NCBI GenBank assembly: GCA_016794035.1
Contig: JAEUHS010000033.1
Span: forward strand, 62,001 to 126,000
DNA from: Planctomycetota bacterium
GTDB lineage: Bacteria > Planctomycetota > UBA1135 > UBA2386
DNA: 64,000 bases
Direction of reading: 5' to 3'
In this document: one piece after another, positions 51,380 through 64,000 of the stretch
How positions within the stretch are numbered: the stretch's first letter is position 1
Layout of the letters: the number at the start of each line of letters is the position of its first letter
Notes under the pieces: model-generated
Database searches by the model: none
The model's input: the letters and a program-made list of their open reading frames with translations, nothing else
What the model was told of the DNA's origin: nothing
Program-made: the position numbers and the translations under genes

Positions 51380-53770
51380 TCACTTGGTCGGGCGCGCGCC
51401 GGCGAGATCGCTCCAGAACGCCGACTCCCAGTAGGCCTCGAGCGCCGACAGCTTGTCCTCGTCGTTGCCCTCGCGCTGGGCGACGCCGAGTTGGTAGGCG
51501 TAGCGGGCGGCCATGGGCACGAAACCGACCGTGCGTTTGGCCTTGGCCGCAGCCTCGCGCGCGAGCTGGCGGGCGAGGTCCAACTGCGCCGACAGTGCCT
51601 TGCGGTTCGTCAGCGTCAACGTGCCCTGAGCGTCCTGCTGGCCGCCGAGCGAGTAGTACTTGTTGATCAGCGACGCACCCTTGAGGAACGCCATCGACCC
51701 GGCGGCGAGCCGCAGCAGGTTCGTCTCGTGCTTCTTGCCCTCGATGCCCTCGGCGAGTCGAACGGCGCGCAAGGCCAGCAGGTAGTCCAGGTCGTTCTGC
51801 GCCAGCCGGTTCTGCGCCGTGGCCTTGTCGATACCGGCCTCGCGCGCGATGTCGTCGATCGTCAGCGACTCGAGGTATGCGAGCACGGCACCCGCCGCCG
51901 AACCGTAGGCCTTCGCCGCCTTGCCGATCACCGCGGAGTCGATGGGCGCCGTCTGCCCCTCTTCGTTGCCGAAGTCCTGTTGGTCGCGGGCGACGTCGAG
52001 CATCGTCCGTGCGACGCCGAAGTACCGCAGCGCGTTGAACAGGCTCTCACCGAGCTGCGTGCCCTGCTTCTCGTCGAGCTGCTTGTCCTTCGTGGCGTCG
52101 AGGATCGCCTTCGCCTGCGCGAAGGCGGAATCGCCGAGCGACGTCAGCGACTCGCCCACGACGAGCGCGTGGAACGCGCGCAGCGTGTTGATCTGGCCGC
52201 CGCCGGTCGTGCGCTTGGCCTTGATCTCGACTTCGGCCATGAAGGCCTCGAGCTGCCCTTTGACGGTCGCGGCGGCCTCGACCTGGGCGACGAGGTCCTG
52301 GATGTCCTGCTGTTGCGCCGACTTCATGAAGCGCGCCGCGTCCTTCGTCATGCCGGCGAGAACGGCCGCTTCCACGTAACCGTCGTAGGAGGAAGCCAGG
52401 AAGTCGCTGCGTTCGAACTCCTGCGCCTTCTTGAACGCCGCATCGGCCTGCTGCGCGAGCGGCATGATCGTGTTCTTCAACTCGTCGTTGCCACCCCGCG
52501 CGAGGCTGCCGAGATTCGCGACTTCGCTGTCGAGACGGGCCTTCCACGCTTGGTTCTTGGCGCGCAGACGCGCCGAGGTGTCGCTGTCGAGTTCCATCTC
52601 GCCCTCGGCGACGGGGGCCGGACGCGCGAGGTCGTTGCCGGTGAGGAACTTGTAGCCCTCGAAGACATCGTGGATCTCCACGACCTCGAGCCCGAACTCC
52701 TTGCCGGCGTCGAACAGGTCGACGGTGCGGCCCGTGCGCAGATCCTGGTGGTTGCGGGCGCCCATCGGGAAGCCGAACCGCTTGATGCCGGCCTTCGCCG
52801 CTCCCTCCATCTTCTGCACGATGCCGCCGACGGGTCCCGCAGAGCCATCCGGGTTGATCGTGCCGGTCATCGTGGTGTCCTCGCGCAGCGCCTGGCCGCG
52901 CAGCAACGCCACCATCGTCGCAGTCATCAACATGCCCGCCGACGGGCCGTCGATGTGTCCGCCGGTGCGCACGAGGAATTCGTAGTCGGTCAGGCTCTGA
53001 CCCGTCACCTGGCTCGCGCTGAATGCCGCCAGCCACGTGGCGGTGCGCCACTGGTTGCCGGCACCGCCGGCGAACTCCTCCATGACGCCGACGCTCGGGC
53101 CTTCCTTCGTGTTCGGCGAGATGCGGACCGTCGTCGGCGAAGTGCCGCCGCTCGCCTGCGGACCGGTCGGACCGCGGAACCAAACCGCCTTCACGGTCGC
53201 TTCGCGCGGGGCCTTCAGCGACAGCTTCGCCGGAGCACCGGCCCCGGTGCCGCCGTCCCTGCTCGCCTTCGCTTCACCGCCGCCCCTGAAGAACAGGAAC
53301 GCCGCGGCCGCCAACACGAGCACGCCGGCGACGAGCCCGACCGTCTGCTTGCTGGCCACGGCCACCCTCCCGGAGACGCGCACCGCAGAGGGCAGCGTCT
53401 GGATCGCAGTGTCTCTCGTGTGCCCACCCGGAGCGACCATGCTCCTCGTGCTACCGTTCGCGTCGACCGGGCCCTTCACCTGCAAGAGTTCGATCGACCC
53501 GTTGCCGATCTTGAACTGCACACCGGGCGTCATGCGCTCCTCCGTCACCCTGCGGCTGCCGATCCACGTCCCGTTGGTGCTGCCGGCGTCCCGCAAGACG
53601 ACCTTGCCGTCCACGAAGTCGATCTCCGCGTGACGCGCCGAAGCACCGGAGTCGTGCATTGCGATGTCGCCGGTCTCGCGCCCCACGACGAGATGGCCCT
53701 GGTCGAACTCGTGATCGGCGGGAGCCTGCTTCTCGCGGCGGATACGCAGGACGAACGACGGCTTGGTCAT
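51380..53770 (-). CDS. FHA domain-transmembrane-Lon-like (S16) serine protease fusion
   Basis: The 796-residue product starts at ATG 53770. Residues 1-100 form an FHA phosphothreonine-binding domain (HLVVGRETGDIAMHDSGASA then RHAEI, DAGSTNGTWI). A transmembrane helix spans about 143-161. Residues about 185-370 match the Lon proteolytic domain: GGHIDGPSAGMLMTATMVAL with Ser277, MTGTINPDGSAGPVGGIVQK with Lys320, then AGIKRFGFP. The Ser-Lys spacing of 43 equals that of E. coli Lon S679-K722. A 420-residue helical C-terminal region follows. No AAA+ ATPase domain is present. Confidence 0.9.
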   Translation of the reverse strand: MTKPSFVLRIRREKQAPADHEFDQGHLVVGRETGDIAMHDSGASARHAEIDFVDGKVVLRDAGSTNGTWIGSRRVTEERMTPGVQFKIGNGSIELLQVKGPVDANGSTRSMVAPGGHTRDTAIQTLPSAVRVSGRVAVASKQTVGLVAGVLVLAAAAFLFFRGGGEAKASRDGGTGAGAPAKLSLKAPREATVKAVWFRGPTGPQASGGTSPTTVRISPNTKEGPSVGVMEEFAGGAGNQWRTATWLAAFSASQVTGQSLTDYEFLVRTGGHIDGPSAGMLMTATMVALLRGQALREDTTMTGTINPDGSAGPVGGIVQKMEGAAKAGIKRFGFPMGARNHQDLRTGRTVDLFDAGKEFGLEVVEIHDVFEGYKFLTGNDLARPAPVAEGEMELDSDTSARLRAKNQAWKARLDSEVANLGSLARGGNDELKNTIMPLAQQADAAFKKAQEFERSDFLASSYDGYVEAAVLAGMTKDAARFMKSAQQQDIQDLVAQVEAAATVKGQLEAFMAEVEIKAKRTTGGGQINTLRAFHALVVGESLTSLGDSAFAQAKAILDATKDKQLDEKQGTQLGESLFNALRYFGVARTMLDVARDQQDFGNEEGQTAPIDSAVIGKAAKAYGSAAGAVLAYLESLTIDDIAREAGIDKATAQNRLAQNDLDYLLALRAVRLAEGIEGKKHETNLLRLAAGSMAFLKGASLINKYYSLGGQQDAQGTLTLTNRKALSAQLDLARQLAREAAAKAKRTVGFVPMAARYAYQLGVAQREGNDEDKLSALEAYWESAFWSDLAGARPTK

Positions 53771-54077
53771 GGGAGCGCGTGGATCGAAGTGGATGACGCC
53801 CGCGGCCACCCCGCGTCTTCCAGCCGGTCGCTCGGCGGGGACGCGAGCCATGTGGCCCCAGGCGCACGGCAGCGTGGACTCCGTGGGCCAGACGCTCAAG
53901 TGGACCTAGTGCGGTCGCCATCACGGGCATTCGAGCGCGGGCACGCACTCGGAGCTGCCCGAGTACGCAGAACGGCGCGTTCGCAGTCGCGTGACGGCGT
54001 TCCATCATGGCGGTGCATCGTCCAGAGGTCGCCGCCCTCGGCACGTCGCGAGTCATGACTCGGCGAAGGATGTCCCC

Positions 54078-55964
54078 ATGACCGTCCTCCCCCACCCGCC
54101 CCTCAGGTTGCTCGCCGTCCTGTTCCTGCCTTTGGCGTGGCTCACCATGGCCACCGCCCAGGTTCCGTTGCCCAAACCGCCGAAACTGCCGCCGCTGCGG
54201 AAGACGCCGGTGGAACAACCCGCCGCGACACACCCGTTCGCCGGCACGTTCGCCAACGCCAGCATCGTGCTCGCACTGGGCTGGGACGAAGCGGCGCAGC
54301 GATACAGCGGCACGCTGACGTACGCGGGCGAGTCCATGCCCTGCTCCGGCAGCGAACAGGGTGGCAGGCTCGTCGGAACCTACGTCGACGAAGGCGAAAC
54401 CTGGGATTTCACGGTCGAGGCGCAGGGCGCGACGTTCGTCCTGACCAGCGACGGCGAACGCCACGAACTGGCACGACGCGATCGCCCGACCCCGCCGGCA
54501 ACGGCCGCCGCGACGGGTGGCGTCGGCATCCTGTTCCAGCCGGACGAGAACGGTCGCTTCGTGGTGGCGCAACTGACCCCCGGCGGCCCCGCCGAGGCCT
54601 GCAAGGTCCCCGTCGGTGGGATCCTGCGCGCCGTCGACGACAAGCGCGTCGACGGCCTGTCGCTGGAGCAGGTGCGCGACCTCGTCATGGGCCCGGTCGG
54701 CACGATGGTCGTGTTGACGATCGAGACCGAGGGGCGGTCGACCCCCATCGTGCTGCAACGCGCCGCGCTGGATCCGAACGCCGCCACGCGCGGCCCGCGC
54801 CCGACCCCGGGCGATGCACCGCCTGGCCTGCCGGCGCCGAACGGCACGGCCGGCGCCTACCCCGACTGGCTGCAGCCGGGGGTGCGCGTCACGTACTACG
54901 GGGGCAGCGCTTCGCTGCCGGGCGTTCGCAGCCAGCTCGTCGAGCACGCCGAGGGCGGTTGGGTGGACAGCAGCGGCCGGCGCTACCGCGAGGAGGAGGT
55001 GATGGGCACCGGTGGTGCGGGGCTCACGCAGTACGACTTCGTCAACGTCACGCGCGACTGCCTGGCGGCGTCGATGACGATGTTCGTGTTCGCCGGCGCC
55101 CAGCTCGAGACCGTCTCCCGCACGCTGACGCAGGGTGTCGTCGGTGATCCGAACGGGTTCACCGATGTCTGGCTGCCACCTGCGCGCCTGCGCGCGATGG
55201 AGGAACGGCAGAGCCCCGGCCTGACCATCCTGCGGCTGCAGTACCCGCTCGGTGGCCGCACCTACGACGCCGTCACGACGCAGACCACCTCGCAGACCGG
55301 CTACACGCGATACACCTACGATCTCGAGTCCGGGCTGCTGCTCGCGTACTCGAGCAGTTCCGTCGGTTCGCCCGTCGTGACGCCGCTCGGCGACACGTCG
55401 ACGACCGGCAGCGGGTCCACGACGATCACGACCGTGCAGCTGCGCAACGTGCGCGCCGTGCAGGTGCCGTGGGCCGGTCAGCGTCCGCCACGATGGCTGC
55501 AGCCGGGTCGGCTGGTGCACCTCGCCGGCACCTACGCGACCAGCCTCGGCGGCGAGCTGGCGGCGGCACCGTTCCGCTTCGACGCGCAGATCACCGTCGA
55601 CCACCGCGTCGGCGACTGCCTGATCGCGAAGCTGGCGACGCGGCTCGACTTCGGCAACGGCATGGGCCAGGACGCGGAGAGCCTGCAGGTCTACGGCCCG
55701 GCATCGATCGGCAGCCTGTTCCTCGATCCGTCGTGTGTGCAGCGCATGCAGCCGGGTCAGGTCCTGGACCAGGACCCGTTGACGGGCTGGCAGGTGACCT
55801 TCGCCGGCAGCGACGGCCGCTACGCGACGATCTTCGAACAGGGCTCGCTCGAGCAGCAGAGCTACACCTACGACCTGCAGAACGGCGCACTCGTGGCGAC
55901 GTCGATGCGCCAACAGGTCGGCCCCGCGACGAACCTGCTCGACCTGCAGTTGCAGGGCAACTGA
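54078..55964 (+). CDS. Secreted PDZ-domain protein
   Basis: The start at 54078 is supported by AAGGA at 8-base spacing and a signal peptide (LRLLAVLFLPLAWLTMATAQ). In the 628-residue product, residues about 145-225 form a PDZ domain (GVGILFQPDENGRFVVAQLT, ACKVPVGGILRAVDDKRVDG). The remainder is beta-rich with Thr/Ser repeats (GYTRYTYDLESGLLLAYSSS, QQSYTYDLQNGALVATSM), which may be a duplicated beta domain. No protease triad is seen. Probably a periplasmic or surface scaffold. Confidence 0.8.
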   Translation: MTVLPHPPLRLLAVLFLPLAWLTMATAQVPLPKPPKLPPLRKTPVEQPAATHPFAGTFANASIVLALGWDEAAQRYSGTLTYAGESMPCSGSEQGGRLVGTYVDEGETWDFTVEAQGATFVLTSDGERHELARRDRPTPPATAAATGGVGILFQPDENGRFVVAQLTPGGPAEACKVPVGGILRAVDDKRVDGLSLEQVRDLVMGPVGTMVVLTIETEGRSTPIVLQRAALDPNAATRGPRPTPGDAPPGLPAPNGTAGAYPDWLQPGVRVTYYGGSASLPGVRSQLVEHAEGGWVDSSGRRYREEEVMGTGGAGLTQYDFVNVTRDCLAASMTMFVFAGAQLETVSRTLTQGVVGDPNGFTDVWLPPARLRAMEERQSPGLTILRLQYPLGGRTYDAVTTQTTSQTGYTRYTYDLESGLLLAYSSSSVGSPVVTPLGDTSTTGSGSTTITTVQLRNVRAVQVPWAGQRPPRWLQPGRLVHLAGTYATSLGGELAAAPFRFDAQITVDHRVGDCLIAKLATRLDFGNGMGQDAESLQVYGPASIGSLFLDPSCVQRMQPGQVLDQDPLTGWQVTFAGSDGRYATIFEQGSLEQQSYTYDLQNGALVATSMRQQVGPATNLLDLQLQGN

Positions 55965-56008
55965 GGCGCCATCGCTCGCCTTGTCCCCGGTGGTTGGAGG
56001 CCATTCCG

Positions 56009-56881
56009 ATGAAGATCACGTTCTTGGCACTGCTCGTCCTGCCGCTGGCATCGCCTGCCGCGGCACAGACCGACCCGAAGGTCCTGTTCACGAGCATCTC
56101 CTGGTCCGAAGCCGAGTCCCCGCTCGGCTTCCAGATCCACCTGCGCGGAGCGATCGCGGACACCGACGGCGCGCACCGCTACGACGTGCTCTACCAGCTG
56201 CGGCAACACGCGAGACCGGGAGAAGCCGGTCCGCTGCTGGGTGACGCGCGGAACCCCGACGGCAGCGCCTTCGTGCTCGGCGAAGCGCCGGCACCCGACT
56301 CCAGCGGTCGGATCGCGTTCGAGTTCGCCTTCGACCTGACGCGCAAGGAACTCAGCGGCATGACGCCGCTCGAGAAGGGCCGTGTGGTGCTGCGGGTCGA
56401 ACCGCAGATCTTCGACAAGACCGCGCGCCGCTTCCTGACGGCGCCGCGATCCGACGCGCTGATCGCCATCGCCGACGTCGGCGAACGCGGCAAGGTCCAC
56501 ACGCTGGTGCCGTTCGGCAAGTGGTTCGGCAACTGCTACGGCGAGCAGTCGGCGACGACCGCGCTGCAACTGCTCGCGTCCCTCGATGCGATCGACTACG
56601 AAGGCAACGCGATCGTCCCGGGGTTCGAGTCGATCTTCGCCAACGAACTGACGAAGCCAGCACAGCTCGTGAGGTTCCTCTCGGCGCTGCCGGCCAGGGA
56701 ACTCGCTTTCGGCAAGAACAACCTGCGCCACTGTCTGGCGGCCCTCGCCGAACACCGGGACGCCGACGTGCGCGCCGCGGCGTCGGCCAAGATCAAGGAA
56801 GCCGAGGCACTGCCAGCGCCCCACCGCGGCGCCGACCACCGCTCGATCTCGTCGTCTCCCCGCAGGTGTTCACCCACCTGA
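56009..56881 (+). CDS. Secreted protein of unknown function, 3' end possibly altered
   Basis: The 290-residue product has GGAGG 8 bases before ATG 56009 and a signal peptide (MKITFLALLVLPLASPAAAQ). A beta-rich domain with EFAFDLTRKELSGMTPLEKG is followed by a helical segment ending RDADVRAAASAKIKEAEAL, which resembles a HEAT repeat. The last ~25 residues (APHRGADHRSISSSP...) lie over a methyltransferase remnant read in another frame, so the natural C terminus has probably been replaced by readthrough. Confidence 0.7.
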   Translation: MKITFLALLVLPLASPAAAQTDPKVLFTSISWSEAESPLGFQIHLRGAIADTDGAHRYDVLYQLRQHARPGEAGPLLGDARNPDGSAFVLGEAPAPDSSGRIAFEFAFDLTRKELSGMTPLEKGRVVLRVEPQIFDKTARRFLTAPRSDALIAIADVGERGKVHTLVPFGKWFGNCYGEQSATTALQLLASLDAIDYEGNAIVPGFESIFANELTKPAQLVRFLSALPARELAFGKNNLRHCLAALAEHRDADVRAAASAKIKEAEALPAPHRGADHRSISSSPRRCSPT

Positions 56882-57323: not shown

Positions 57324-59906
57324 TCACGGCGCAATGGCCGCGGCGATGGTCTGGAAGAACCGCGCCGACCACTCGGCATGGCGCGGTCCGACCTGCCGGC
57401 GCACCTGAGCGATCACGAGTTGCTGCTCCGGGTCGATCACGAAGATGCATCCCGAGAAGGAACCGTGCCCGAGGGTGCGCGGGCCGTACAGCAGGTCCTC
57501 GGGACGTCGAGAGCCTGCAGCAGCGCCCGGCTTCAGGTGGTGGACCCAGTGGATGCCGATGCCCTCGTCGGCGGTGTGTCCGCGGTCGGCAACCTGCAAC
57601 GGCTCGGGAAGGAGCTTCTCGAAGGTCTGCGGGGTGATGAACTCCCATTCCCCGTAGCTCCCCCGATTGGCGACCCACTGGGCGAGGATGCCGAGTTCCA
57701 TGGCGGTGAACTCGCCATCGGAGCTCGCATTGCCGATCGGCACATCGCCGAACCCGAGCGGCCGGAACAGGTGTTCGTCGTAGAGCCGCACCGCGCTCCG
57801 GCCCGCGACCAGTTCCATCGCCTTGGCGGCGATCTCGAACCCCATGCCGCTGTATTCGTACCTCGCGCCCGGCGTGTTGGCGTCGATCGCATTGAGAACG
57901 AGGTTCTCGAGGTGTGGATTCCGCATGCCGCCGAAGTCGCCGTGGCCAGACAGGCCACTCGTGTGGTTGAAGCACTGGCGGAACGTCGGGACGCGCGGAT
58001 CGTCCGATGGGTAGTCGGGGAAGACCTTCGACAACCGGTCGTCGAGCGCCATCAGCTCCTGGTCCAGGAACCTGCTGAAGAGCAGCGCGGTGACGGTCTT
58101 GGTGATCGAGCCCACCCAACAGCGGTAGTCGAGCGTCACCGGCTTCCCGCCCCTGTCGACGCCGAAGGCCTCGTGCGTGACGACCACACCATGCCGAGCC
58201 ACGAGGGTCACGAACGGTTCGCCGGTGTCCGCCGCCCACGCCTTGCAGACGGCGTCGAGGTTCGACTTCGCATCGTCCCGCATGCCAGCCTCCTGCCACG
58301 AGCCCTGGTGCAGCACGGTGGCAGGTGCATCGCGGCGGCGCGGCGGCTTCAGCGGGCGAACGCGCGGCCGCAGTCCCTGCAGCTCGAGCTTCAGGGCCAG
58401 ATGGGCGTCGTCGTTCAGGACCGTTGCCGATTCGACGAACCGCGCGGGTCGGCCCAGCGGCACGAACTCGGCGAGTCCCGCCAGGAGGATGGCGCCTGGC
58501 TCGCTGTCGAGAACCGCCTGCGGCACGACGCTCGACGCTGCGCGCGTGAATTCGGCCTGGTGCTCCCGCAACACCTGCGGGGCGTTCGGACCGGGGAAGT
58601 ACGGCATGACGACCGTGAAGTCGGGCACGTAGCCACCGGCAACCGTCGTCGGCAGCGCGTAGAACGTCATTGCGCGCCGGAGCGGCGTTCCATTGGGAGC
58701 GGTGCCTTCGATCCAGGCGATCCACCGCCCGGGCGAACCGGGAACGTCGCTCTCGTTGCAGTTCGCGTCGAACCAGCGCACGCGCAGCGGACCGTGGAAG
58801 CCGAGCCGCCGGACCTCTTCGAGGTCGCGCCAGACGATGCGGGGCGGCTCACCAGGCTTGAACAACCAGGTCCCGTGCCTGGCCGGGATCAACTCCTGGG
58901 ATGCGAACCGCAGCGCATCCTCACGTCGACGGATTCGGTCCTCGTCGCCGCTCGGCGGCGGGGCGGCCTTCGCTGGCGACGCAGGCGGCTCGCCGAACGC
59001 CGCGCGGTAGAACGCCCAGTTCTCATCGCCCATCGCGCGGAGCACGCCCATCGGATCGTGCGCCACACCGGGCAGCACCGACCACGTGTGCGGAATCTCG
59101 AGGCGCTGCAGGTGCTCGTGGAACTCCCTGTTGGGAACGAACGCCTCGTCCTCGGCGCCGATCACGATGCGGACGAGCGAGCCGCGCGCGATCGACCTGG
59201 CGTTCTGCTCGGCCAGCGTGCGCGGGCTGGAGCTGCGGAAGTAGTCCTGATCGCCGCCGTAGACGGTTGCCAGCACCTCCGCCACTCGACGCCGTCCGGC
59301 GCGCGGTGGCTGGATCAGTTCGGCCTGCATCGGCCCTGCCCCGACGATCGAGACGGCGCGGAACAGTTCCGGATGCTCGAACCCCAGCCGCGCCGCGCCG
59401 TACCCACCCATGCTGAAGCCGTCGAGCATCCGCCCCTCCCGCGCCGCGATGGTGCGGTTCGTCGAGTCGATGTGCGGCACGAGTTCCGTGACGATGACCG
59501 TCTCCAGCGGGACCGAGCCATCCTTCCAGTCGACGTACATGCCATCGACGAGGCCATTGACGAACACCACGAGGCACGGCGGCGCCTTCCCCGACTCGAC
59601 CGCCGCATCGAAGTGTCGGGCGACCTCAGGGATCCCCTCGAGGCCGCCCCCCGAGCCGTGCAGCCAGTAGACCACCGGAAAACGCCGCTCCAGTTCGCGG
59701 GTGTACGCGGCCGGCACGTAGAGGTGGTAGCTGACCTTGGCCTTGGCCGCGACGCTGTCGAAGGTGTGGAAGGTGACGCGCGTGGCCCTGACCGCGGGCG
59801 TGACCCACTCGACCTCGGGCGGTCGCGAGGGTCTGGTGAGACCGCCTGACTGCGCTGTCACCGCAGCGGCCGTCGACAACAGGGCCAAGAGCCATTTCCA
59901 AGCCAT
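57324..59906 (-). CDS. Esterase (Fes/EstD-like) fused to a class C beta-lactamase-family domain
   Basis: The 860-residue product starts at ATG 59906 (GAGGAG 9 bases upstream) with a signal peptide (MAWKWLLALLSTAAAVTAQ). The N-terminal alpha/beta hydrolase has FPVVYWLHGSGGGLEG, the nucleophile elbow GFSMGG (Ser165) and a later VAHDPMG His. The C-terminal half is a serine beta-lactamase/penicillin-binding-like domain with SITK (Ser600-Lys603), YSG where YSN is usual, and HGSFSG near the end. Two hydrolases in one exported chain suggest processing of a wall or surface ester substrate. The second domain is intact except for the Asn change. Confidence 0.88.
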   Translation of the reverse strand: MAWKWLLALLSTAAAVTAQSGGLTRPSRPPEVEWVTPAVRATRVTFHTFDSVAAKAKVSYHLYVPAAYTRELERRFPVVYWLHGSGGGLEGIPEVARHFDAAVESGKAPPCLVVFVNGLVDGMYVDWKDGSVPLETVIVTELVPHIDSTNRTIAAREGRMLDGFSMGGYGAARLGFEHPELFRAVSIVGAGPMQAELIQPPRAGRRRVAEVLATVYGGDQDYFRSSSPRTLAEQNARSIARGSLVRIVIGAEDEAFVPNREFHEHLQRLEIPHTWSVLPGVAHDPMGVLRAMGDENWAFYRAAFGEPPASPAKAAPPPSGDEDRIRRREDALRFASQELIPARHGTWLFKPGEPPRIVWRDLEEVRRLGFHGPLRVRWFDANCNESDVPGSPGRWIAWIEGTAPNGTPLRRAMTFYALPTTVAGGYVPDFTVVMPYFPGPNAPQVLREHQAEFTRAASSVVPQAVLDSEPGAILLAGLAEFVPLGRPARFVESATVLNDDAHLALKLELQGLRPRVRPLKPPRRRDAPATVLHQGSWQEAGMRDDAKSNLDAVCKAWAADTGEPFVTLVARHGVVVTHEAFGVDRGGKPVTLDYRCWVGSITKTVTALLFSRFLDQELMALDDRLSKVFPDYPSDDPRVPTFRQCFNHTSGLSGHGDFGGMRNPHLENLVLNAIDANTPGARYEYSGMGFEIAAKAMELVAGRSAVRLYDEHLFRPLGFGDVPIGNASSDGEFTAMELGILAQWVANRGSYGEWEFITPQTFEKLLPEPLQVADRGHTADEGIGIHWVHHLKPGAAAGSRRPEDLLYGPRTLGHGSFSGCIFVIDPEQQLVIAQVRRQVGPRHAEWSARFFQTIAAAIAP

Positions 59907-60179
59907 CGCTGCCATCTCCTCGCGCGCGATCGGGACGAGCAAGCCGCGTCCCGATCCACCCGGACCCAGCCCCGGCACGATCATCGTCCCTTTGCGTCGC
60001 GTCAACACCCGGCCAGACCTCCCCGCGGGCGCTTCGCGATCGTCGGTGGAGTTGCCGCCGCGCCAGTTCGACACATGGGCACGTTCCTCCGCGACGGCGT
60101 CGCATGCTCGTAGAGGGCGAGCCGGAGTGCCGCCGGGGCCCGCGCGCGTCCGCGCCGCCGCCGAGCGCGAATCGCCCCG

Positions 60180-61832
60180 TCAGAGGTTGATCGCGAACAC
60201 GGCGTGGGCGGGCGACTCGATACTGCCGATGCGAAAGCTCACGATTGCGACGGAGTAGGTGCCGGGGTCCAATCGGACCCTGGACGGAAACAGCCAACGG
60301 AACGAGCGCTCTCCCTTGGCCTGCACCTCGATGACTTGTGTCCGGTTCTCCGGGTTCACGGGCGACACGTCCCGTCCTGCGTTCCGGAGGCGCACGTCTC
60401 CGAGCTCGAACGAGATCGCCAAGTCTCTGTCGTTCCTGATTCGCACGGAGACTTCGACGCCCGCCTTGCTGTTCTTGACCTTGAGCACGTCGAACAGAAG
60501 GTCCGCGCTGCGAGTGGTGGGTGGCTGCGCCACGCTCGTCCATTCGTCGCCGGCGATCGAGCCCGCGAGCCAGGTTCCGGCTGCGCCGACGATCAATGCC
60601 AAGACGATCGCCGGGACCAACGCAGGGTTTCGCCGTGCGATGCGACCCACGCTCGTGCGCCATGCGCTCAGCGGGCTGCTGCGCCGCGCGAGCACCCGCT
60701 CCCCAGCGAGGAATCGGCGCAGGTCCTTCGCGAACTCCTCGCACGACGCGTAGCGGTCGCGCCGCGCCTTGGCGATGGCCTTCATCGTGACGGCGTCGAG
60801 TCCGTTGCGCAGCGAACCCGCGAGCTCTTGCAGGCGGCAGCGGCGCAGTTTCAGGATCTCGTCCCGCGAGTTCTTCAGGCTGCTCAGCCGCTGCCGCGGC
60901 GTCGGCGGCTCCTCTTCGCGGATGCAGCGCTGCACTTCGAAGTAGCCCTTCGCGCGCGCCGCCTTGAAGTCGAACGGCAGCACGCCCGCCAGCAACTCGT
61001 AGAGCACGACGCCGAGCGAGAACACGTCGGAGCGCGCGTCGACGTCCTGCGCCGACGTCTCGGCCTGCTCGGGGCTCATGTACTCCGGCGTGCCGATGAT
61101 GCGCCCTTCCTCGGTGAAGAGCGTGCGCTCCGTCAGCCGTTGGTTGGTCGCCTTCGCGAGACCGAAGTCGATCACCTTCACGACGGGCTTGCCGTCGATC
61201 TCGGTGACGAGCAGGTTCGTCGGCTTGACGTCGCGGTGGAGGATCCCGCGATCGTGAGCATGCTGCAGCGCGGCGCAGGCCTGCAGCAGCAACTCGAGCC
61301 GCTCCTTCACCGACAGCCGGTTGTCGTCGCAGTAGCGCGTGATCGAGACTCCGCGCACGAGTTCCATCGCGAACCACGGCCGCCCCGTGGCCGTGGCGCC
61401 GGCGTCGAGCACCTTGGCGACGTTCGGATGATCGAGCAGCGCCAGCGCCTGGCGCTCGGCTTCGAACCGCGCGAGCACCTCCTTCGTGTCCATCCCGACC
61501 TTGATCACCTTGATGGCGACGCGGCGTCGGATCGGTTCGCGCTGCTCTGCCGCATACACCACGCCCATGCCGCCCTCGCCGAGCACGTCGAGGATCCGGA
61601 ACGGACCGAGGCGATCGGGGTGCGATGGGCCGTCGTCCCGGGTCGTTCGCGATCTGGCGTGGTCGCGGCGGGTCGTGAAGCGGCGTCGAAGTTCGTCCGC
61701 GAGATCCGGGCGGCTGGCGCAGGCTCGTTCGAGTGCCGCGGCGTGGGCCGCGGCAGGTTCGGCGAGCAGGGCGTCGAGGAGCGCTTCGATCGGGTCGTGG
61801 TCGCGCCTGTCGTTCCGGTGCTCGGTCCTCAC
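60180..61832 (-). CDS. Ser/Thr protein kinase, membrane anchored
   Basis: With a GTG start at 61832 the 550-residue product has an N-terminal acidic segment (DPIEALLDALLAEPAAAHAA), a Hanks kinase domain (GEGGMG at 85-90, Lys108, HRDVKPTN from 199, DFG at 222-224, GTPEYMSPEQAE), a transmembrane helix (about 403-425, PAIVLALIVGAAGTWLAG) and an external beta-rich domain of about 125 residues. No good ribosome-binding site is seen, so the start is uncertain. A truncated paralogue of its N terminus lies at 46826. Divergent from the TIR gene, 243 bases away. Confidence 0.92.
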   Translation of the reverse strand: MRTEHRNDRRDHDPIEALLDALLAEPAAAHAAALERACASRPDLADELRRRFTTRRDHARSRTTRDDGPSHPDRLGPFRILDVLGEGGMGVVYAAEQREPIRRRVAIKVIKVGMDTKEVLARFEAERQALALLDHPNVAKVLDAGATATGRPWFAMELVRGVSITRYCDDNRLSVKERLELLLQACAALQHAHDRGILHRDVKPTNLLVTEIDGKPVVKVIDFGLAKATNQRLTERTLFTEEGRIIGTPEYMSPEQAETSAQDVDARSDVFSLGVVLYELLAGVLPFDFKAARAKGYFEVQRCIREEEPPTPRQRLSSLKNSRDEILKLRRCRLQELAGSLRNGLDAVTMKAIAKARRDRYASCEEFAKDLRRFLAGERVLARRSSPLSAWRTSVGRIARRNPALVPAIVLALIVGAAGTWLAGSIAGDEWTSVAQPPTTRSADLLFDVLKVKNSKAGVEVSVRIRNDRDLAISFELGDVRLRNAGRDVSPVNPENRTQVIEVQAKGERSFRWLFPSRVRLDPGTYSVAIVSFRIGSIESPAHAVFAINL

Positions 61833-62075: not shown

Positions 62076-64000
62076 ATGCCGGACGGGTTCTACGACGCGT
62101 TCCTGAGCTACCGCCACGCCGAACCGGATGCCACGCTGGCTCGCTCCCTGCATACGCTGATCGAGTCCTACTCGCTGCCCGCTCGAGTAGCGCGGGCACT
62201 GGGGCGGCCAAGGCGCCTGCGCGCATTCCTCGACGATCTGGAAGTCGCGGGGGCCTCGAGCCTCACCGCGGAACTGACCAACCGGCTGCGCGCAGCCCGG
62301 AGCCTGGTCGTCCTGTGCACACCGCGCGTCAAGGAATCGCAATGGGTCGCATGGGAGATCGAGGCTTTCCGCGAGCTGGCACCAACTCGTGTGTTCACTG
62401 TGCTCCTGGAAGGCGAGCCGGGCCCATCGATCCCGACGAGCCTGTTCGACCCAACGGCGCCGACGAAACAGGCGTTGTTCATCGACTTTCGCAAGCGGGG
62501 CGCCGCCCGTCGCGCGGAGTTCCTCCGTCTGATCGCGAGCCTGCACGGATGCGATTTCGACGAACTCGCGCGCCGCGACCTGACCCGAAGGCGGCGTGCG
62601 TGGGTGTCCATGTCGCTGGCCGGGATCGTGCTGGCGGGCACCATCGTCGTGTACGAACGACGGACGCAGGGAGTCGTGGCCGAGAGTCGGAACGAAGCGG
62701 CGCGCGTCGTGGTCGAGCAGAGCAAGTCCGAGCTAGCGACCGTCGAGAGCATCGCTGATTCCCGAGCCACCATGGACGTCGGCGGCCTCGTGCGCCAGCT
62801 CGGGCGACAACGCTTCTCGACCAAGGGCGGGCTGGGCTTCCAGCGCAAGCGATTGGATGGCGACCTCGCCAGCGATCTGGGCAAGGCGGCCGAGGCGCTG
62901 GAGTGCTACGTCGCTTCGCTGGCCGAACTCGACGCCTTGGTCGCGGCGCAGGGCCCCACCCCGGACTTGCTGCGGGAGCGGGCAGTGGCCATCGACCGCC
63001 AGGCCGATGCGCTGCTTGCCATGGGACGGCTCGCAGCCGCGCGAACGGCCTACGAAGCCGGCATCGTCGCGGCACGGCAACTGGTCGCGGGCGATCCGGC
63101 GAACCGGAGAGCCCTCTCGTTCCTGCTGGTCGGTCGCGGCGACGTGGCGTGCGACGAGGGACGCGCCACCGCCGCAATGGAAGACTATGACGAGGCCGCA
63201 CGGATCAGGATCGAGCTCGCCCGGGTCGGTGGCGACGAGGACGAAATCGACGTGGCGACCGTGGAGGTCAAGTGCGGCGACGCACGGTCGCTCGCGGGCC
63301 GGCTCGTCGACGCGCTGGGGTTCTATGCTGCCGCGCGGGATCGGCTCGCGACGCTGCAGACGCACTTGGGCCGTGACAAGCGGGTCGTGTCACTCCTGGG
63401 AGTGGCACGGCAACGCGTTGGTCATGCGCTGCTCGACAGTGGCCAGGTTCGAGAGGCCCTGCAGGAGTTCCAGCAGGCATCTCGCGACCTCGCGGTCGCA
63501 TCGCAGCGCGACGAAGAGAACATGGTGGTCCTCCAGCTGGCGGCCGACAGTCATCGCTGGATCTCGGACGCCTGGGTGTCCCAGGGTCGCCTCGCGGACG
63601 CGGCAACCGAATGCGAGACGGCTGTCGCCGCGATGCAGCGACTCTCGGACGCGGATCCCGACATGGTTGCATGGCGCGTCGCGGCGGCGCGGTCAGCGGT
63701 CAACTGCGCCTATGTCAAGGACCGCCAAGGCGACACGGCCTCGGCGATCGAGGTGCTCCGCGCCCAGTTGGTTCGCCTCGGCAACGACGATGGCAACCAG
63801 GACGGCATCGACAGCATGGATGCGCGTGCCGACGTGCTCAGGGCCCTCGGACAGCTGCTCGCGACGTCCGGAGCAGTACCGGCGGCAGTCGATTGCTCGC
63901 GGCAGGCACTGGCCGTGCGCGACCGGATCGCGAAGGCGACCGGAGCGGCCAGCGACCGCATCCGCCTCGGTGATGCACATCACGCATTGGCGCACACCCT
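62076..64000 (+). CDS. TIR domain-transmembrane-helical repeat protein, 3' end outside window
   Basis: The open frame from ATG 62076 continues to the window end without a stop (641 residues visible). Residues 1-150 form a TIR domain: DGFYDAFLSYRHAEPDAT, a FLDD segment, and SQWVAWEIEAF in which W90...E94 matches the WxxxE pattern containing the catalytic Glu of NAD-consuming TIR domains. A transmembrane helix follows (about 176-193, WVSMSLAGIVLAGTIVVY), then a long helical region of TPR-like units (LLAMGRLAAARTAYEAGIVA, HALLDSGQVREALQEFQQAS). Codon use is mixed, less GC-biased than in neighbours. Immune signalling or defence is a plausible role. Confidence 0.85.
   Translation, partial: MPDGFYDAFLSYRHAEPDATLARSLHTLIESYSLPARVARALGRPRRLRAFLDDLEVAGASSLTAELTNRLRAARSLVVLCTPRVKESQWVAWEIEAFRELAPTRVFTVLLEGEPGPSIPTSLFDPTAPTKQALFIDFRKRGAARRAEFLRLIASLHGCDFDELARRDLTRRRRAWVSMSLAGIVLAGTIVVYERRTQGVVAESRNEAARVVVEQSKSELATVESIADSRATMDVGGLVRQLGRQRFSTKGGLGFQRKRLDGDLASDLGKAAEALECYVASLAELDALVAAQGPTPDLLRERAVAIDRQADALLAMGRLAAARTAYEAGIVAARQLVAGDPANRRALSFLLVGRGDVACDEGRATAAMEDYDEAARIRIELARVGGDEDEIDVATVEVKCGDARSLAGRLVDALGFYAAARDRLATLQTHLGRDKRVVSLLGVARQRVGHALLDSGQVREALQEFQQASRDLAVASQRDEENMVVLQLAADSHRWISDAWVSQGRLADAATECETAVAAMQRLSDADPDMVAWRVAAARSAVNCAYVKDRQGDTASAIEVLRAQLVRLGNDDGNQDGIDSMDARADVLRALGQLLATSGAVPAAVDCSRQALAVRDRIAKATGAASDRIRLGDAHHALAHT

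Follow-up and report, generated by a model that had tools for sequence, protein, structure and literature searches.

The gene running off the right-hand edge of the DNA analysed here codes for a protein in which an N-terminal TIR fold with an intact glutamate and a TPR fold are arranged in a layout conserved in its family, and which, judged by sequence comparison, belongs as a divergent member to a widespread, little-studied family of TIR-membrane helix-repeat proteins. It is best explained as a receptor in the membrane that has its TIR enzyme in the cytosol, carries a TPR sensor outside and would act by messenger signalling, a reading to which we assign a probability of about one half. The layout as such had been noted before and is confirmed by Pfam matches to TIR_2 and TPR_2 above their cut-offs, by a hydrophobic segment and by a model of the full length available.

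The window, i.e. the whole stretch of 64,000 nucleotides that was analysed, comprises positions 62001-126000 of contig C80 in a source assembly (G000) of 4.83 Mb in 133 contigs, the last base of the contig being 126479, which is 479 bases beyond the window. The ATG-initiated frame (Table 1) runs unbroken to the window edge and has grown to 801 aa at the contig end with no stop codon reached, so that neither the C terminus nor the neighbours on the right can be seen. Contig C110 was rejected as the source of the missing C terminus because the 20 bases with which the query contig ends are absent there. The codon-position signal of the gene is like that of the neighbouring genes.

Table 1. Coordinates of the features in the window and the evidence on which they are based
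Feature	Position	Strand	Evidence
TIR-membrane helix-TPR gene, visible part, 641 aa	62076..63998	+	ORF reading
TIR domain, residues 1-159	62076..62552	+	Pfam, AF2 model, Foldseek, VIA-align (rows span model residues 3-159)
Box-1-like DAFLSYRH, residues 7-14	62094..62117	+	Sequence; F9, S11 and Y12 invariant in alignment A2
W90-x-x-x-E94, E94 being the putative catalytic Glu	62343..62357	+	Invariant E94, alignments
Single membrane helix, residues 175-193, after RRDLTRRRR	62598..62654	+	Mean hydropathy 1.86; continuous helix in model
TPR superhelix, residue 254 onward, extending past the window	62835..63998	+	Pfam TPR families; model and Foldseek
Ser/Thr kinase, divergently transcribed; one membrane helix, short C-terminal domain	60180..61832	-	Pkinase, E 5e-41

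TIR fold and putative active site

The N-terminal domain has a TIR fold. Pfam TIR_2 matches residues 37-149 with 36.2 bits (cut-off 28, E 1e-8) and ThsB_TIR is likewise above its cut-off (25.2 against 21.2 bits). Structure prediction, which the preliminary description had named as a possible refutation, speaks for the fold: the AlphaFold (AF2) model of residues 1-200, built from an input alignment of 23 sequences, has a mean pLDDT of 91.7, and the matches listed by Foldseek against the PDB are TIR proteins, namely C. elegans TIR-1, SARM1, the plant proteins RPP1 and RUN1, TLRs and SPARTA. With VIA-align, Z scores over 124-130 residues are 15.5 for Hydra TRR-2, 15.1 for both SARM1 and SPARTA and 12.6 for AbTir, and the TIR domains of TLRs and MyD88 are also found at similar Z. 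A phmmer search of the PDB with the query sequence alone returned no relative; the family profile matched 37 distinct sequences there.

Both motifs pointed out earlier are in place, DAFLSYRH at residues 7-14 and W90 and E94 within SQWVAWE. In profile alignments to the PDB, that is, in sequence-profile alignments and not in residue-level structural superpositions, the column of Glu94 coincides with the motif Glu of S-x-W-C-x-x-E in flax L6, Roq1 and TLR2, so that the proposed comparison with a catalytic Glu came out in favour of the assignment; in the plant proteins L6 and Roq1 this Glu is the catalytic one. All 23 rows of alignment A2 share E94, S11, Y12, D53 and S88. Four rows from the phylum stand outside A2, of which L028 and L031 (in its true frame) keep the motif and L040 and L045 do not match. 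In addition, a search of named genomes with a pattern from six members, containing neither the Glu nor the helix, gave 203 relatives, and all of the best 80 of these carry a Glu at the matching motif, the 80 rows not being independent: there are near-identical ones among them, and at least four of the loci are records that also appear among the phylum loci. The conserved Glu together with D53 and S88 suggests a kept active site, and reading the protein as a putative TIR enzyme is supported.

Membrane helix and TPR arm

Residues 175-193 are the strongest hydrophobic segment of the protein, and the single helix followed by a repeat region that had been described before is thus borne out, the repeats being a TPR superhelix. 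Pfam TPR_2 scores 31.8 against a cut-off of 27, and the 801-aa model (mean pLDDT 75.2, with a weak stretch at about 203-251) shows helical TPRs beyond the membrane helix, its closest PDB structures in Foldseek being the TPR superhelices of LGN and OGT. Around the helix there are six Lys/Arg before and three after it, and from this charge bias alone a topology with a cytosolic TIR domain and external repeats is predicted. The earlier likening to a sensor with a cytosolic TIR effector therefore holds in so far as the protein is receptor-like, with a topology predicted from charge.

A family with exchangeable outer modules

The protein shows all the features by which the family is defined here: a TIR domain, a basic stretch, one membrane helix and a long repeat module. 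The best 80 of the 203 relatives in named genomes come mostly from Lachnospiraceae, with some from Planctomycetota, Verrucomicrobiota, Lentisphaerota and others. Among the 79 that are long enough for the helix test (L053 being too short), hydropathy finds a membrane helix in 78, and Lys/Arg in the 15 residues before the helix outnumber those after it in 78 and equal them in one. Beta-propeller families are the commonest C-terminal Pfam matches in these 79 relatives (PF25174 in 29), and the 25 C-terminal Pfam families listed for them do not include a TPR family. Otherwise, the outer module consists of WD40 repeats in L007 and L015, RHS in L008 and L016, and TPRs in the query and its paralogue, which supports the view that the outer sensor module may be exchangeable across the family. 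In L015 (9840-17337) three TIR proteins lie near each other, a TIR-helix-WD40 protein, a second TIR protein and a TIR-TPR protein.

In the TIR tree the query forms a long branch, with a top identity of 42 percent, and its partners therefore need not equal those of its relatives. Close matches occur in 7 of 41 related genomes, with four of the nine matches spanning the TIR domain, the query itself among them, and the query genome contains one paralogue of the same TIR-TPR layout, closed at 1018 aa. A TIR-helix profile at E <= 1e-8 finds the family in 8 of 154 genomes of the class and 18 of 392 of the phylum.

Neighbourhood and genome of the query gene

The left side of the query is made up, according to Pfam, of a divergent kinase, an esterase-beta-lactamase protein, a PDZ protein and an FHA-Lon-like protein. 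The esterase and beta-lactamase-type domains reside within a single 916-aa frame (57324-60074), and at 51380-53899 an FHA domain is fused to a Lon-type proteolytic domain. The kinase, described as such already and upheld by its Pkinase match, probably starts with the GTG at 61832, an inferred choice that leaves 243 bp between the kinase and TIR genes. It was rejected as a partner of the TIR gene because a similar kinase lies near only 2 of 23 related loci of the phylum and none of the 80 named loci, and its PADLOC matches to PD-T4-6, mad6 and MkoA were judged to be generic kinase matches. The similarity of the TPRs to those of kinase-TPR proteins (E 2e-4) was judged too generic to count as evidence of descent.

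No defence gene was recognised by Pfam among five neighbours, and the window holds no other TIR, SLOG or RyR-like ORF; a TIR profile that has the query among its rows matches the query alone (E 4e-59) of the window ORFs of at least 100 aa. Pfam gave no match in the first-guess ORFs at window positions 55868-56839 and at L014:16840-19509, whose frames are possibly wrong. The visible neighbours of the TIR-TPR paralogue are likewise ordinary. In the query genome RyR had no match in a search that was positive in 19 of 392 genomes, and four genes matched by a TrkA_N-RyR profile (E 3.5e-9 to 1e-6, each partial over its 595 positions) were read as probable ordinary TrkA-type domains. One SLOG-SLATT homologue (E 3e-71) resides on contig C110, unlinked to the TIR gene. 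It adjoins an nSTAND1-TPR gene (L177:4334-10716), and this pair looks like a separate conflict system.

Gene context in relatives

With respect to the named relatives, BLAST clustering of neighbouring ORFs shows that one cluster of about 500 aa (e.g., L048:5197-6702, with its loci among L048-L127) is present at 45 of the 80 loci, at 42 of them directly adjoining the TIR gene; several orientations occur. Both members scanned with Pfam are DHH/DHHA1 phosphoesterases, and all 45 loci fall within one Bacillota-dominated clade of 62 rows. The DHH phosphoesterase is likely to be a functional partner of the TIR-helix-repeat gene in Lachnospiraceae and their relatives.

A TrkA_N-RyR membrane-protein profile matches strongly near 9 of 103 loci, of which L016, L066, L091, L101 and L111 were chosen from the neighbour lists as its seeds and match by construction, the others being L120, L122, L123 and L126. 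Six further loci match weakly (15 in all), and only L162 of these was counted, on account of the Pfam RyR match there; L112, another weak one, has no RyR according to Pfam. RyR is above the Pfam cut-off in L016, L066, L101 and L162 and weak in L091 and L111, and the TrkA_N-RyR neighbours span Planctomycetota, Gammaproteobacteria and Bacillota. A SLOG-SLATT profile seeded with L016, L056 and L101 finds matches near 5 of 103 loci (the seeds, L066 and L163), with weak Pfam support for SLOG or SLATT in L056, L066, L101 and L163 and none in L016. All three genes, i.e. SLOG-SLATT, TrkA_N-RyR and TIR-helix, occur together in L016 (298-13071), L101 (2257-8552) and L066 (3219-8561), two of them from Planctomycetota and one from a gammaproteobacterium. 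At most loci of the relatives, the profile search of the 103 found no RyR or SLOG neighbour.

Two further arrangements were observed. In L162 (7108-9414) RyR, TPR-S and a nucleotide cyclase are combined in one protein immediately upstream of the TIR-helix gene, and in L163 (4716-11451) SLOG-SLATT, adenosine deaminase and DUF4062 genes stand in series adjoining the TIR-helix gene.

At the level of whole genomes, RyR is found, among the 392 of the phylum, in 6 of the 18 that contain the TIR family and in 13 of the 374 that lack it (p 7e-5, one-sided Fisher's exact test, uncorrected for kinship and genome size), and in two of the six (G032 and G360) the RyR and TIR genes are at most 10 kb apart. 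When 69 of the 130 ORFs near 20 related loci were scanned with PADLOC, 13 families turned up, each in one protein, a result that, being without a control, says little. Taken together, the TrkA_N-RyR, SLOG-SLATT and DHH partners of some relatives suggest signalling by an NAD-derived messenger and not only suicide by NAD loss.

Proposed function and alternative explanations

The protein would accordingly be a single-pass membrane protein in which the helix serves as signal anchor, with the N-terminal TIR domain, retaining the Glu used by TIR NADases, in the cytosol and the TPR arm outside the cytoplasmic membrane, where it might bind a ligand, another protein as its partner or a signal from the cell envelope. 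This would bring the TIR domains together in clusters, and they would then cleave NAD+ to ADP-ribose or a cyclic ADP-ribose-type product, which could serve as a messenger to effectors that sit in the membrane or bind nucleotides; given sufficiently strong activation, the loss of NAD might itself damage the cell. The protein may thus have a part in biological conflict. Extracts of PMC9503650 describe TIRs as producers of ADP-ribose-type signals and SLATT as a predicted membrane-permeability effector under the control of such signals, which matches the partners found in the relatives, and PMC13174449 reports DUF4062 proteins to be TIR-like NADases. TIR proteins with membrane regions are mentioned in an extract of PMC9153377, and excerpts of PMC7159879 and PMC8195603 count TIR among the conflict effectors of multicellular bacteria including Planctomycetes.

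The preliminary description had proposed anti-phage abortive infection, where an infection signal would trigger the TIR domain and direct depletion of NAD+ would kill the cell. Although the intact Glu, the patchy spread in class and phylum (see above) and the clustering of some relatives with other TIR, SLOG-SLATT, DUF4062 or RyR genes would be in keeping with this proposal, it is without direct support: the query has no recognisable defence gene next to it, nor does the window hold any additional ORF resembling TIR, SLOG or RyR, the query's PADLOC matches to ThsB are weak and partial, and the PADLOC families near relatives are single, control-less hits. The context in the relatives, with recurrent partners of a messenger type, instead favours nucleotide-messenger signalling over simple depletion, the former being the broader claim of the two. 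We therefore regard abortive infection as unlikely, and an anti-phage role of this protein is something that we would at most infer.

Rather improbable, in turn, is an ordinary envelope or developmental signalling protein with no conflict role, a TIR counterpart of kinase-TPR proteins. The kinase-TPR proteins of relatives are weakly similar to the query in their TPRs, a one-helix kinase divergently adjoins the gene and the codon-position signal is that of the neighbours; however, similarity between TPRs is generic, the adjacency of the kinase is not conserved, and TIR enzymes elsewhere are mainly linked to conflict, as far as extracts of PMC7159879 and PMC9503650 go. Least probable of all appears a non-enzymatic TIR scaffold that assembles a membrane signalling complex in the manner of MyD88 or TLRs, even though their TIR domains match at similar Z and TLR2 likewise carries a Glu at this position, because the Glu is kept by every one of the best 80 of 203 relatives, from several phyla, and D53 and S88 by all 23 rows.

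Bacterial TIR defence proteins that have been studied are mostly soluble and sense intracellular events. A conserved membrane TIR family with external sensors would, if true, convert an outside cue into NAD-based signalling, and its recurrent partners would be testable effectors, namely the RyR and TrkA_N proteins and SLOG-SLATT, while the DHH enzyme could degrade the messenger. Extending the receptor reading further, the family might constitute a multi-phylum analogue of Toll-like receptors in reversed order, in which an exchangeable repeat sensor outside the cell leads, via an NAD-derived messenger made by the cytosolic TIR domain, to the opening of TrkA_N-RyR or SLOG-SLATT membrane proteins, with clearance by DHH in Lachnospiraceae; the query would be a divergent case, its partners either unlinked or past the contig end; this extension is tentative, and we hold it to be possible but doubtful. 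No description of a TIR-SLOG-SLATT-RyR cluster or of the pair with DHH was found in literature searches, outside the scope of which was the survey that Burroughs and colleagues made in 2015 of nucleotide-centred conflict systems, the reported origin of the names SLOG and SLATT.

Comparison with known systems

Thoeris ThsB, a TIR synthase of a messenger, resembles the query in that the latter is above the ThsB_TIR cut-off, has a Glu at the catalytic position and gives weak, partial PADLOC matches to ThsB, the best of which has 21.5 bits and, far from full length, covers model positions 56-112 of 155. In contrast to ThsB, however, the query is anchored in the membrane and carries a large TPR arm; on its left side no adjoining ThsA was recognised, the right side being past the contig end, and the NCBIfam model ThcB4 scores 17.5 bits where its cut-off is 220.

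The TIR-TPR proteins of group 6, as described in part of PMC7075850, share with the query the N-terminal TIR domain, many C-terminal TPRs and a length of over 700 aa, but are mainly actinobacterial with their own box-1 pattern RDFFVSY, and, unlike in the query, no membrane helix is mentioned in that part. The TIR profile also matches residues 43-113 of PDB chain 9m0n (E 1.7e-5), an 824-aa 'Tetratricopeptide repeat protein' for which a literature search found no paper.

The TIR NADases SARM1 and SPARTA are close in fold, with a Z of about 15, but have a low sequence identity to the query of about 11-22 percent. Their regulators, ARM/SAM in SARM1 and Argonaute in SPARTA, differ from that of the query.

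Finally, the resemblance to TLR/Toll receptors, whose TIR domains have a fold Z of about 12-15 to that of the query, is to be understood as an analogy of layout with no claim of descent: here as there a single membrane helix would separate a TIR domain inside from repeats that are predicted to be outside, yet the order is reversed in the query, with an N-terminal TIR domain and with TPRs in place of LRRs.
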